A stretch of 64,000 nt of DNA. It comes from Pseudomonas sp. GM80 (GTDB taxonomy: Bacteria; Pseudomonadota; Gammaproteobacteria; Pseudomonadales; Pseudomonadaceae). Every line of letters starts with the position of its first letter. Within the stretch, counting starts at the first letter, position 1. The notes beneath the pieces were generated by a model that was not told where the DNA came from, made no database searches, and saw only the letters and a program-made list of their open reading frames with translations. The position numbers were made by a program, and so were the translations under genes. Below are positions 1 to 59,768 of the stretch, in pieces. The stretch covers positions 1 through 64,000 of the forward strand of contig NZ_AKJD01000042.1 in NCBI RefSeq assembly GCF_000282515.1, read 5' to 3'.

Positions 1-79
1 TGTAGGAGCTGCCGAAGGCTGCGATCTTTTGATTTTGTTTTTTAAGATCAAAAGATCGCAACCTTCGGCAGCTCCTACA
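1..79. repeat. REP-like inverted repeat downstream of pyrE
   Basis: The left arm reads TGTAGGAGCTGCCGAAGG and its reverse complement closes the element, with an AT-rich centre containing AAGATCAAAAGATC. The same family recurs at 13961-14048 and 21705-21829, and as a half element at 22481-22516. As the only palindrome after the pyrE stop it may also act as a transcription end or mRNA-stabilising hairpin. Confidence 0.85.
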
Positions 80-92
80 GAATGATGCCTTA

Positions 93-3865: not shown

Positions 3866-4234
3866 CTACTTGATCAACCGCCAGGTAAACGGATACCGGT
3901 ATGGATACCCTTCGTTGGCCTTGACCCCGGCAATGATCGTCAACACCAGTGCGCCAATCGCCAAAATGCCAATCAGGAAGAAGCCGACGATCAGCACCAT
4001 CAGCAGGAAGCAGATCAACGAGGCAATCGCCACGGTGATCTGAAAATTCAGCGCCTCTTTGCCCTGGGCATCGATAAACGGATCCTTTTCACGCTTCATC
4101 TGCCAGAGGATCAATGGCCCGATCAGGTTGCCGAACGGAATCCAGATCCCCAGCAAGGCGGACAAGTGACAAAACATCGCCCACTGACGAACCTCCTGGC
4201 TCGGCTTGGGCAGTAGCTCTTGCTGGTCACTCAT
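3866..4234 (-). CDS. DUF4870 membrane protein
   Basis: 122 residues with three hydrophobic stretches (around 30-50, 68-92 and 92-108) and motifs of the Tic20-like DUF4870 family (MFCHLSALLG, PLILWQMKREKDPFID, QGKEALNFQ). The gene occurs between crc and rph in other Pseudomonas. Its function is unknown. The start ATG at 4234 follows a GGAG-like ribosome site. Confidence 0.9.
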   Translation of the reverse strand: MSDQQELLPKPSQEVRQWAMFCHLSALLGIWIPFGNLIGPLILWQMKREKDPFIDAQGKEALNFQITVAIASLICFLLMVLIVGFFLIGILAIGALVLTIIAGVKANEGYPYRYPFTWRLIK

Positions 4235-10588: not shown

Positions 10589-10750
10589 GTGGGAACCTCT
10601 GTGGCGAGGGGATTTATCCCCGATCGGCTGCGAAGCAGTCGCAAAACCTTTGTGCGCGGTTTATCTGATCAACCGCGATTGCAGGATTTGGGGCCGCTGC
10701 GCGCCCCATCGGGGATAAATCCCCTCGCCACAGGGGATCAATTCCCACAG
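10589..10750. repeat. Long intergenic inverted repeat (GTGGCGAGGGGATTTATCCCC type)
   Basis: The arms CTGTGGCGAGGGGATTTATC (about 10599) and its complement ending at about 10733 enclose about 80 bp that itself contains smaller palindromes (GCGGTTTATCTGATCAACCGC). A diverged copy of the same element lies at 59551-59704. It sits between two convergent genes. Confidence 0.85.
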
Positions 10751-13955: not shown

Positions 13956-13960
13956 GTAGC

Positions 13961-14048
13961 AAGATCAAAAGATCGCAGCCTTCGGCAGCTCCTACATTGG
14001 AATGCATTTCCCTGTAGGAGCTGCCGAAGGCTGCGATCTTTTGCTTTT
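13961..14048. repeat. REP-like inverted repeat after tonB
   Basis: AAGATCAAAAGATCGCAGCC...CTCCTACA and its reverse complement flank a 16-nt centre. Same family as 1-79. It begins 6 bp after the tonB stop and probably stabilises the transcript end or ends it. Confidence 0.85.
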
Positions 14049-21586: not shown

Positions 21587-21704
21587 GATCCTGCTCCATC
21601 CAGTGATGAGGGTCCGTTGCGGACTCTGCATCCCGATTGAGCACCCATCTGCGCGGCAAAACACCTGTCAGACCTGACAGGTCTACCTCGCCGCAAACAC
21701 TGCA

Positions 21705-21829
21705 TGTAGGAGCTGCGGCACGCTGCGATCTTTTGATCTTGATTCTGGATTTCAAAATCAAAAGATCAAAAGATCAAAAGATCAAAAGATCAAAAGATCA
21801 AAAGATCGCAGCGTGCCGCAGCTCCTACA
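21705..21829. repeat. REP-like inverted repeat with internal octamer array
   Basis: The arms TGTAGGAGCTGCGGCACGCTG and its complement enclose an AT-rich core in which ATCAAAAG is repeated six times without interruption (21757-21804). The arms differ from the 1-79 copy in both halves (CGGCACGC in place of CGAAGGC), so pairing has been kept by paired changes. Confidence 0.9.
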
Positions 21830-21875
21830 GGAATTGGTTGGGCGATTTGCTCCGGCTCGGCGTGACTGCCTTGAA

Positions 21876-22259: not shown

Positions 22260-22600
22260 GCGCACAGCCTCAAAAGGAAAATGAACGGCCGGGGCAGTGT
22301 AAGGGATTCGCACAATAACGCCACTATCTGCCACCGTTGCAAGAGGATGTAGACCATTTCCCGCACGATGACCACCAAGTCACGATCCAAAGCCCCGCCA
22401 CTGATCGCTCCCACGCTCCGCGCAGAAATGCATCCCGAGCCACCCCGCCCCCCTTTCCTACACCTGTTGCAACACACCCCTGTAGGAGCTGCCGAAGGCT
22501 GCGATCTTTTGATCTTCCCCCCTGCAACTCCTTAGGAAATTTCCCGCAAAGCGCGGCGGCGTGCATGAACTAGGCGGCTTGAAGGTTCATCGATAGGCTG
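22260..22600. other. Non-coding gap with one half REP element
   Basis: The 341 bases between the SCP2-like gene and the DUF6124 leader hold no convincing ORF. The only recognisable item is a single REP arm (TGTAGGAGCTGCCGAAGG...) at 22481-22516 without its partner. The promoter of the downstream leader RNA should lie near the right end. Confidence 0.6.
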
Positions 22601-22614
22601 AGTACGTCACCACA

Positions 22615-22833
22615 AATCGGTGATACGGACGTGCAAGTCCGGTGGGAGTCCACATTGGTTATGGCAATTCGCCGAGCATTTTCCTATGCTCGCGGATCGT
22701 TATGGCTGCTGTGTATGGGAGACCTTCGGGTCTGCCGGGTGACTCCACCGGTCTTGCACACCTATGCACAGCTGCCACCACTTTCGAAGTGCGAGCGAAA
22801 CGGTGTCGGCTCCTGAAACTGGAGTAAGACCGA
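22615..22833 (+). ncRNA. Structured leader RNA motif upstream of DUF6124 gene (copy 1)
   Basis: Visible helices: CGGAC/GTCCG at 22626-22641; GTGG/CCAC at 22642-22653; CGAGCAT/ATGCTCG at 22673-22692; a 16-position stem pairing 22704-22719 with 22761-22776 (one T-T mismatch); and, inside it, AGACC-TTCG-GGTCT (22720-22733) and CCGG/CCGG (22735-22751). A second copy at 39725-39959 keeps every helix with changed bases, including two fully compensated pairs in the long stem. The motif ends directly at the DUF6124 start. It could be a cis-regulatory leader or an sRNA overlapping the 5' region; no known riboswitch class was recognised. Confidence 0.7.
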
Positions 22834-23205
22834 ATGATCAAACCAACACCCAATCCCCCCGAAACCCCGGACATATCGCCCTACGAATCGCTGGAATCAA
22901 AGAAATTCCACGAAGCCGCCGAGCGCGCCCTCGACCACCATTTCAAACCGCCCCTCGAACCGCAACCCAAACGCGAAACCGGCCTCTTCAGCCTCTCCCC
23001 CGGCACCGACGCCGAAGCCCTCATGGCCAACGCCTCCGAAGACCTCCTGTCCATCAGCGTCATCGCCTCCGACCTCGCCGACGACCTCCACGGCTCACGC
23101 CGCTCGGTAGCGCTGGCCCTGAGCAGAATGGCGGACGGGGTGAGATTGATGGTGGAAGGCACGCTCGACCACATCGAAGTACGGCGCGCGGCGGTCAAAC
23201 CGTAG
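22834..23205 (+). CDS. DUF6124 family protein (copy 1)
   Basis: 123 residues: a Pro-rich opening (TPNPPETPD), an acidic/basic helix (FHEAAERALDHHF) and a C-terminal helical half with the family pattern ANASEDLLSISVIASDLADDL and RRSVALALSRMADGVRLMVE. It has no signal peptide or membrane helix and is probably a small soluble helical protein. The family is frequent and multicopy in Pseudomonas, and its function is unknown. Both copies here follow the same structured leader. Confidence 0.85.
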   Translation: MIKPTPNPPETPDISPYESLESKKFHEAAERALDHHFKPPLEPQPKRETGLFSLSPGTDAEALMANASEDLLSISVIASDLADDLHGSRRSVALALSRMADGVRLMVEGTLDHIEVRRAAVKP

Positions 23206-39724: not shown

Positions 39725-39959
39725 GATGACACGGACGTGCAAGTCCGGGTAAAAGACGACGCGCAACGTCATTGGTCGCTGATCGGGCATTTCCCTGCTC
39801 GCGCAACCGACTGTATGGCGGCTGTGCGCGGGAGATCCTTCTTTCGAGAATGATCTGCCGGGTCCGTCTGCCCGGTCTTGCACACCTGCGCACAGCTGCC
39901 ACCTTATTTGCGTGCAAGCGAACGGTAGTGGCTCCTTACATACAGACGGAGATACACCC
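39725..39959 (+). ncRNA. Structured leader RNA motif upstream of DUF6124 gene (copy 2)
   Basis: Same fold as 22615-22833. CGGAC/GTCCG at 39732-39747; GACG/CGTC at about 39755-39770 (different bases from copy 1, pairing kept); CGGGCA/TGCTCG at 39784-39801; the 16-position stem 39817-39832 with 39885-39900, fully paired here; and AGATC/GATCT enclosing TTCT-TTCG-AGAA (39833-39856). CCGGG/CCCGG follows. The sequence between helices has drifted while pairing persists. It ends at the DUF6124 ATG. Confidence 0.7.
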
Positions 39960-40346
39960 ATGTTCAAAGTGACGCCCAACCCGCCAGACAACACCTGCAC
40001 CCCAACCGAAGAACCCCTCGACACCGAAATGCTCGACAGAGAAGCCGCCGACCGCGCCTTCGCCCACTACTTTCCGCCTACCGTCGATAAACTGTTCAAA
40101 CGCCGCAAAAGCGGACTCTTCACTATCTCAACAGGTATTGACCCGGAAGCCCTACTGGCCAACGCCTCCGAAGACATGCTGTCCATCAGCTCCATCGCCG
40201 CCAAATTAGCGGACGACGTAGAAGGCTCGAATCGCTCCGTAGCACTGGCCCTTAGCCGAATTGCCGATGGCGCGCAGCTCATGGTGGAGCGTGCGCTGGA
40301 TCATCTGGAAGAGTTGATCGCGGCAAGGCAGGAAGCTAAAACGTAA
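39960..40346 (+). CDS. DUF6124 family protein (copy 2)
   Basis: 128 residues, paralogue of 22834-23205: TPNPPDNTC opening, ADRAFAHYFPP, then ANASEDMLSISSIAAKLADDV and RSVALALSRIADGAQLMVERAL. No signal or membrane segment. The ATG at 39960 follows GGAG of the leader. The gene stands on the + strand in the middle of a long minus-strand array, carrying its own leader. Confidence 0.85.
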   Translation: MFKVTPNPPDNTCTPTEEPLDTEMLDREAADRAFAHYFPPTVDKLFKRRKSGLFTISTGIDPEALLANASEDMLSISSIAAKLADDVEGSNRSVALALSRIADGAQLMVERALDHLEELIAARQEAKT

Positions 40347-59550: not shown

Positions 59551-59704
59551 CCTGTGGCGAGGGGACTTGGCGAAACGTCGCACCGCCCCGCTGGGGTGCG
59601 CAGCGCCCCCAAAACCTGTGACCCGGTTTCTGCAGGGAAACCGCGTTTGCCGGACTGCGACTGCTGCGCAGCCGATCGGGGATAAATCCCCTCGCCACAG
59701 GGGG
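59551..59704. repeat. Intergenic inverted repeat (copy of the 10589 type)
   Basis: CTGTGGCGAGGGGACTTGGC at the left and GGGGATAAATCCCCTCGCCACAG at the right form the arms, with a GC-rich middle holding GCGGTTTCCCTG. It fills most of the 348-bp gap 59421-59768 between the sigma-54 activator and the small lipoprotein gene. The flanks show no clear promoter. Confidence 0.8.
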
Positions 59705-59768
59705 TTCACTGATCACAGGGGTTTCACTGCCCACAGGGATATTGTTGGATGCAGCGATCACTTTCTGC

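Follow-up and report, generated by a model that had tools for sequence, protein, structure and literature searches.

A predicted C4 antisense RNA before a DUF6124 gene belongs to a multicopy Pseudomonas family with self-matched and fast-changing target codes

The structured RNA leader in front of a DUF6124 gene in Pseudomonas sp. GM80 is, judged by its sequence and its Rfam match, a C4 antisense RNA of the phage P1/P7 immunity type, and it represents one of 28 C4 copies in that genome, all above the cut-off. The RNA class itself is already known; what appears to be new is the code it carries, comprising a loop a' that is invariant among the orthologues of copy 1 and a fast-changing, self-matched b part. 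Two such modules lie in the window, i.e. the 64,000-nucleotide stretch of contig NZ_AKJD01000042.1 that was analysed, with the following features.

22594..22599, + strand: putative -10 element TAGGCT (TAnnnT) of the leader transcript, copy 1; TA...T recurs at constant spacing before the 5' hairpin
22607..22623, + strand: 5' hairpin, copy 1, from the fold; segment 22607-22627 has a pairwise identity of 0.84 among 41 syntenic orthologues
22626..22641, + strand: a1 hairpin, copy 1, loop GTGCAA, predicted upstream target or antagonist of loop a'; duplex with C4 of -37.3 kcal/mol including b1
Within 22626..22641, + strand: a1 segment GACGTGCAAGTCC, copy 1, found in 41/41 orthologues
22641..22652, + strand: b1, copy 1, predicted upstream target of loop b', with which it pairs; identity 0.53 among orthologues
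22698..22782, + strand: C4 antisense RNA, copy 1, with stem 22704-22719/22761-22776 and tetraloop hairpin 22720-22733; RF01695 at 63.1 bits, covariation
22741..22748, + strand: loop b' GACTCCAC, the hypervariable segment for specificity, with complementarity to both b1 and the Shine-Dalgarno site
22753..22759, + strand: loop a' CTTGCAC, complementary to a1 and a2 (duplexes); CTTGCACAC in 41/41 orthologues
22789..22795, + strand: a2 GTGCGAG, copy 1, predicted downstream target of a' with one G-U pair, from the duplex
22820..22825, + strand: b2, the Shine-Dalgarno region TGGAGT, copy 1, covered by b' in the duplex
22834..23205, + strand: DUF6124 gene, copy 1, 123 aa (PF19619, E 8.9e-21)
22834-22860, + strand: codons 1-9 of the copy-1 DUF6124 gene, shared leader peptide MIKPTPNPP, from motif counts
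39733..39746, + strand: a1 hairpin, copy 2, from fold and duplex
39811..39906, + strand: C4 antisense RNA, copy 2 (RF01695, 57 bits)
39912..39918, + strand: a2 GTGCAAG, copy 2, from the duplex
39945..39951, + strand: b2/Shine-Dalgarno region GACGGAG, copy 2; b' duplex of -17.1 kcal/mol
39960..40346, + strand: DUF6124 gene, copy 2, 128 aa (PF19619, E 8.7e-22)

Both copies exceed the gathering score of 45 for RF01695 and cover the model over its full length (1-87); the Rfam scan gives the best of overlapping clan matches, beneath which a weaker RF01394 match is possible. The original prediction had described a conserved, structured and covarying leader that could be a cis-regulator or a dual-function sRNA and that matched no known riboswitch class. 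Structure, covariation and the lack of a riboswitch match stand, as does the reading as probably a cis-encoded regulator that may also work as an sRNA; the class is a known antisense RNA. The long stem was recovered: with G-T pairs counted, copy 2 pairs at 16 of 16 positions and copy 1 at 15 of 16, the exception being a single T-T mismatch, and the changes reported between the two copies (A-T to G-C, T-A to C-G, T-G to C-G) were verified in the letters. As claimed, the TTCG hairpin and the two hairpins upstream (22607-22623 and 22626-22641) fold, and the motif extends up to the start codon. Relative to shuffled sequences, the isolated element reached z-scores of -4.5 (copy 1) and -6.7 (copy 2), with 0/200 shuffles folding as well in each case, and the two upstream hairpins alone were less remarkable (z -2.3 and -1.7). 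Covariation also persisted in further copies: in an alignment of 70 of the 172 C4 copies retained from six genomes, pairing was kept through changes on both sides at 16 of 22 consensus pairs. G7 and G8 were invariant in all 70, and the window copies read GGC in this region, as reported for two Acinetobacter RNAs by Weiss et al. (PMC5320573).

Further hallmarks of the class identified in the window copies were the long P1 stem, the enclosed tetraloop hairpin, the b' hairpin, a downstream target that matches loops a' and b' and places b' over the ribosome-binding site, and an upstream a1/b1 segment complementary to the same two loops. The class is also defined by RNase P processing to about 77 nt. 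The original prediction had overlooked the 28 genomic copies, the a1/b1 and a2/b2 target sites, and the position of b' over the Shine-Dalgarno site.

C4 RNAs were found to be abundant across Pseudomonas. Five closed genomes contained 42, 24, 35, 30 and 20 copies, 151 in total, of which 150 were analysed (145 of these above the cut-off), and three further genomes, sampled for their C4-less orthologous locus, contained 30, 34 and 36. Matches were obtained in 184 of 199 Pseudomonas genomes and in none of the other 15, with at least 20 copies in many genomes. From a survey of one genome per genus across the class, C4 was detected in 6 of 143, comprising GM80 with 28 copies and five others with 1-3, and DUF6124 in GM80 itself alone (1/143); 14 control genomes yielded no match. 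Also identified, in genome G061, were two pairs of C4 RNAs (L162/L163 and L192/L193) about 150 nt apart with no recognisable effector gene.

Genomic organisation of the modules follows a common plan, running 5' to 3' from the TAnnnT element through a small 5' hairpin, the a1 hairpin, b1, a spacer, the C4 RNA, a2 and b2 over the Shine-Dalgarno site to the start codon; within C4 the order is long stem, tetraloop hairpin, b' loop and a' loop. The promoter-like TAnnnT element keeps a constant spacing to the 5' hairpin that follows it (142 and 139 of 172 copies, anchored in two ways), and because this putative promoter precedes the first hairpin, a transcription start downstream of the long stem is disfavoured. 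The best downstream site for a' begins 0-8 nt after the end of C4 in 169 of 172 copies, and among the 154 copies whose first frame spans at least 70 aa, the start codon falls at positions 42-63 after C4. Predicted pairing of the C4 loops reaches -37.3 kcal/mol with the upstream site and -24.6 with the downstream site in copy 1, and -38.6 and -27.7 in copy 2. Missed by the original prediction, the upstream hairpin loop GTGCAAG of copy 1 is complementary to the 3' loop of the C4 stem. Given this complementarity, the long stem is replaced by an upstream/C4 duplex when the full leader is folded (minimum free energy -99 kcal/mol, z -4.6), with a1b1 paired to the C4 loops; the excised piece, unlike the full leader, folds into the C4 form. 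In these models, the a1b1/C4 duplex and the C4 stem are thus mutually exclusive folds.

Phage P1 uses C4 to silence its anti-repressor, from an immI operon in which a1/b1, C4 and a2/b2 follow one another in that order. We consider it probable that each Pseudomonas copy is likewise a self-contained antisense switch of the P1-C4 type, now controlling a chromosomal small-protein gene, a reading which draws on the family match, the structure, the covariation, the self-matched complementarity to both target pairs, and the coverage of the Shine-Dalgarno site. A single transcript would carry a1/b1, the C4 RNA, and the mRNA leader with a2/b2. By analogy with P1, where RNase P makes the cut, C4 would adopt its three-stem form, be excised, and act in trans on the transcripts of its own module, with loop a' docking on a2 and loop b' covering the Shine-Dalgarno site b2, so that DUF6124 would be left untranslated. 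In the uncut transcript a1/b1 would capture the same loops, a pairing that is more stable in silico, and might serve as an antagonist or timer. The direction of the switch, again taken from P1, would then be C4 silent and gene on in the a1b1-paired leader, and gene off once C4 is folded and processed.

The complementarity on which this switch would depend is matched within modules. Pairing was evaluated for 172 copies, after dropping six (L162, L163, L192, L193, L205 and L206) with no normal gene start after C4 or an atypical match. Self duplexes averaged -34.1 kcal/mol upstream against -26.1 with other copies (z -33), and -24.9 against -19.5 downstream (z -24), and 0 of 10,000 permutations reached the self mean at either site. 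The own target was the single best of all 172 in 45 rows upstream and 16 downstream, and among the best 5% in 110 and 64 rows, respectively. All four segment pairs favour self, with mean self and other complementarity scores of 12.19 and 8.58 for a'-a1, 12.56 and 7.77 for a'-a2, 14.22 and 11.61 for b'-b1, and 15.47 and 10.81 for b'-b2; even within one a' class, b'-b2 still favours the own Shine-Dalgarno region (15.37 vs 10.79). The best b' site lies over a Shine-Dalgarno-like motif in 112 of 168 copies, and the combined a'+b' code is distinct within its genome in 169 of 172. Several observations count against strict orthogonality of the codes. Based on duplex energy, 19-29% of within-genome pairs look cross-reactive, and avoidance of similar codes within genomes was not found, b' identity between same-a' pairs being 4.90/12 within and 5.11 between genomes. 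The window copies illustrate this poor discrimination: they share a', and the C4 of copy 1 pairs with the downstream target of copy 2 at -27.6 kcal/mol compared with -27.7 for copy 2's own C4, such that downstream energies do not separate them.

Effector genes were surveyed behind 178 C4 copies (28 from GM80 and 150 from the five closed genomes), with calls based on profiles built from the families found here and searched within 600 nt after C4. A small-protein gene or its remnant was recognisable behind 171 of them: 117 of DUF6124/DUF3077 type, 44 of an unnamed family of about 90 aa, and 10 Bro-N. One of the seven without a family match (L025) begins as a DUF6124 gene and is then interrupted, and about eight of the 178 modules look broken by eye. 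On contig C99 of GM80 (L025 and L035), this one module has a DUF6124 gene that appears to be broken a few codons in, with the remainder about 1.5 kb away. Viewed from the gene side, C4 was found in the examined flank of 23 of 30 DUF6124 loci in GM80, and two of the 23 are the second member of a tandem pair; of the seven without it, some lie at contig ends. Similarly, 68 of 80 named DUF6124 loci carry C4 at the expected place, and the other 12 comprise three at contig ends and nine without C4. Also observed were dispersed short repeats, perhaps REP-like, of the GTAGGAGCTGCCG.. type and a second type (window 1-84, 13960-14047, 21694-21839 and 22480-22516, and also 10594-10735 and 59551-59705), which recur in the flanks of many related loci.

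The proteins themselves were characterised by profile and structure searches. The family of about 90 aa (L061, L006, L028 and 31 others in alignment A2) is predicted to form short strands and a helical hairpin (pLDDT 91), and the four members tried had no Pfam match. Models of family B (pLDDT 91.2) and DUF6124 (88.8) are confident and mainly helical hairpins, and comparison of the two profiles is weak (probability 2.8%). Neither model retrieved anything from the PDB at E <= 0.001, and for that reason no function was assigned from the fold. NCBIfam returned nothing beyond chance-level matches. Three of the ten Bro-N genes have Pfam matches to Bro-N, an Ant-type fold, and the one Bro-N protein scanned against PHROGs matched anti-repressor families. 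DUF3077 has a relative among phage protein families (phrog_36471, E 9.7e-12), and ten DUF3077 genes are preceded by a frame of 20-38 aa ending at their start. In P1, icd precedes ant in the gene order, and the short frame of the ten DUF3077 modules is comparable to this icd. Expression of ant in P1 is reported to require icd (PMC8201110).

Proteins behind C4 that are otherwise unlike each other share an N-terminal leader peptide resembling M-x-K-x-T-P-N-P-P. Of 99 family-A proteins, 87 place two prolines exactly at codons 8-9; the usual form is P-[ND]-P-P, and the window protein reads MIKPTPNPP. The same placement occurs in 6 of the 39 proteins of family B and in 3 of the 10 with Bro-N, and six more of family B have PP at codon 6; these family-B and Bro-N proteins have no sequence relation to family A beyond the PP motif. 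As the codons of the peptide vary synonymously, it seems to be the peptide rather than the RNA that is kept. Among GM80 family-A paralogues without their own C4 in the flank and with a visible start, two of four have SPP at this place, and nine C4-less orthologous proteins have no PP within their first 16 residues. A ribosome pause just after the start codon is a possible second control on C4-linked genes. In E. coli lacking EF-P, PPD and PPN were found only among pausing motifs, though no more than 2.8% of PPX motifs paused, and an upstream Asn could prevent pausing in some contexts (PMC4140641).

Closer examination of the copy-1 locus, defined by its conserved upstream gene, showed how the code varies. 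Of the 80 named loci, 49 have this gene at the corresponding place, 40 of them with C4 and nine without; adding the window brings the C4 orthologues to 41. The copy-2 locus could not be followed, a match at E <= 1e-30 being present in only seven of 57 genomes. Loop a' CTTGCACAC and segment a1 GACGTGCAAGTCC are invariant in 41/41 orthologues, and b' occurs as 16 different 10-mers. By mean pairwise identity, a1 and a' stand at 1.00, the C4 stem and hairpin at 0.87-0.89, the two spacers at 0.75 and a2 at 0.72. Of the 17 segments measured, b1 (0.53), b' (0.46) and b2 (0.52) have the lowest values; codons 1-9 reach 0.91, the rest of the gene 0.76 and the far upstream region 0.56. A constraint to remain complementary should slow b1, b' and b2, yet these change faster than the spacers. 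Matching is nonetheless maintained, with b'-b2 pairing at -13.5 for self versus -8.8 for foreign b' (in 29 of 41 orthologues the own b' outperforms over 90% of foreign ones) and b'-b1 at -12.1 versus -9.5 (17 of 41). Pairs such as W1/L209 and L210/L211 are highly identical once the start codon is reached and diverge in the leader, and 25 of 36 pairs with flanking genes at least 97% identical differ in b' class. Mapped onto a tree of the flanking genes, b' class shows no phylogenetic signal (24 changes vs a shuffled mean of 24.9). Given that a spacer control is also without signal (8 vs 7.9) and many forks of this tree are weak, the tree, taken by itself, does not set b' apart; the counts of close pairs do. 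C4 presence carries little signal on the same tree (7 vs 8.5 changes, 10/200 shuffles as low).

A comparable pattern was observed among paralogues. For 14 family-A pairs with 95-100% identical proteins in six genomes, b' is shared in 7% and its mean identity is 0.36, against a reference of 0.33 between copies with different a', and the stems are 85% identical; among four family-B pairs with near-identical effectors, b' is shared in half. Two GM80 pairs with identical proteins, L011/L019 and L005/L010, have gene DNA that is 97% and 96% identical and leaders between C4 and start codon that are 58% and 43% identical, and no clear excess of self-pairing over cross-pairing is predicted within them. 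The code, and b most of all, turns over fast and mostly differs between paralogues with near-identical effectors, each copy bearing its own label. The same picture would result from recombination that homogenises genes and spares the leaders, from allele exchange between strains, or from diversifying selection.

The b types of a single locus thus replace one another quickly and in an allele-like manner, as specificity types do when selection is frequency-dependent, and this might suggest that the chromosomal C4 set mainly silences incoming phages or elements with C4-type anti-repressor mRNAs, the small proteins being secondary; this option was named for Acinetobacter by Weiss et al. 2016 (PMC5320573). 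The Bro-N genes behind some copies and the DUF3077 relative phrog_36471 are in keeping with it. Against this are the matched own targets that the modules keep, the purifying selection on copy-1-locus effectors (dN/dS 0.32, frames intact in 41/41), and tblastn searches with one protein each, in which DUF6124 hit one phage record, where it lies at the edge, whereas DUF3077 and family B hit no phage record. We regard immunity as the main role as unlikely. C4 is carried by five of six DUF6124 loci from phage and viral collections. One phage-like record from P. fluorescens Q8r1-96 (EU982300.1, 1-3405; L334) starts with a C4-DUF6124 module next to the repressor gene prtR.

The preference of the full leader for the upstream duplex, and the stronger pairing upstream than downstream (-34.1 vs -24.9), could also be accommodated by a purely cis-acting attenuator, in which the leader would toggle between an a1b1:b'a' duplex and the C4/a2b2 arrangement within one molecule and free C4 would be irrelevant. 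However, C4 is a free antisense RNA in P1/P7, processed chromosomal C4-like RNAs have been seen to accumulate by RNA-seq in Acinetobacter (PMC5320573), and compensatory substitutions maintain the stem on which the released form depends. We therefore think it quite improbable that the modules work in cis only.

The nine syntenic loci without C4 (L225, L227, L228, L230, L233, L240, L243, L247 and L271) bear on whether the effectors need restraint. All of them retain the a1 loop GTGCAAG together with the 5' hairpin and the region upstream, but C4 is missing, as are its downstream targets and the PNPP start, and the intact DUF6124 frame of 119-120 aa is entered from a different start codon. The a1 hairpin loop stands unchanged in all nine, without its C4, around 3900-4030. 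Retention of a1 suggests loss rather than gain of C4 at these loci, a direction about which the flanking-gene tree is uninformative. Control in trans by another C4 would find a candidate in one of three genomes, where a relative with the same a' exists (L321), and its b' misfits the Shine-Dalgarno region by eye. As the DUF6124 frame is intact in the nine loci, repression appears dispensable for this member, and the persistence of the gene in the absence of C4 speaks against a strong toxin. Small proteins under an antisense RNA, in many copies with paralogue-specific codes, would otherwise fit type I toxin-antitoxin-like pairs in which DUF6124-family toxins are restrained by C4. Besides these nine loci, about eight modules that keep C4 with a broken gene (by eye), and some effector genes that exist without their own C4, also count against such pairs. 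A PADLOC scan of eight proteins yielded only a chance-level match for a Bro-N protein (E 0.03) and none for the DUF6124, DUF3077 and family-B proteins. Toxin-antitoxin pairing is accordingly a very doubtful explanation. A new riboswitch or protein-binding leader, towards which the original prediction leaned, would fit a structured leader reaching the start codon; it was dropped after the RF01695 match and is hardly credible, because that full-length match and the loop/Shine-Dalgarno complementarity explain the structure without a ligand.

The antisense switch proposed above shares with the immI operon (c4-icd-ant) of P1/P7 the fold, the RF01695 match and the a1/b1 - C4 - a2/b2 order, and, in a subset, the short frame before the effector (ten DUF3077 modules) and a Bro-N effector (10 of 178 copies). 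It differs in that the Pseudomonas C4 RNAs are chromosomal and multicopy (20-42 per genome in the six counted), their codes differ between copies, and both window copies precede DUF6124 only, rather than the Ant/Bro-N effector of P1. IsrK (RF01394) and the CI RNA of phage P4 are C4-type phage antisense RNAs with upstream and downstream targets, and are single-copy phage regulators in contrast to the multicopy Pseudomonas C4; nothing on topic was present among the matches listed for P4 CI RNA literature. The position of b' over the ribosome-binding site is also as in P1, as given in PMC5320573. According to the same source, the Group 1 C4-like sRNAs of Acinetobacter baumannii AB5075 likewise have many chromosomal copies (21 similar sequences), variable a' loops and an upstream stem-loop (their Region 1), which may be the counterpart of a1. 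Evidence of processing was obtained for these sRNAs, and their targets are described as unknown, with retargeting proposed (PMC5320573); the Pseudomonas modules, by contrast, keep an adjacent gene together with their own matched targets. Weinberg et al. 2010 list C4 and a c4-a1b1 motif from gamma-proteobacteria and phage (PMC2864571); judged by name, this motif would correspond to the Pseudomonas a1/b1 segments, and DUF6124 and code diversity are not mentioned in the portion seen. No description of Pseudomonas C4 modules occurs in the available portions of PMC2864571, PMC12189769 and PMC8201110. The open-licence papers searched yielded no mention of DUF6124, and no link of C4 to DUF6124, to DUF3077 or to a matched-code expansion in Pseudomonas.

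Orthologous loci with near-identical flanks usually differ in code and their effectors stay nearly the same. We tentatively raise the possibility that the 20-40 C4 modules of many Pseudomonas genomes form an RNA-coded identity set, in which b' (and, between loci, a') would be a hypervariable label, rapidly exchanged or diversified and yet matched to its own b1 and Shine-Dalgarno site. If true, this would imply diversifying or negative frequency-dependent selection on antisense specificity, and a chromosomal self/non-self or superinfection-type system of RNA codes. C4, known from the phage literature and one Acinetobacter survey, emerges as a very common Pseudomonas RNA family that precedes proteins without known function, and DUF6124, DUF3077 and the unnamed family would thereby gain a common regulator. 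The 172 natural antisense-target pairs from six genomes should provide a testbed for the evolution of antisense specificity and for cross-talk between paralogues.
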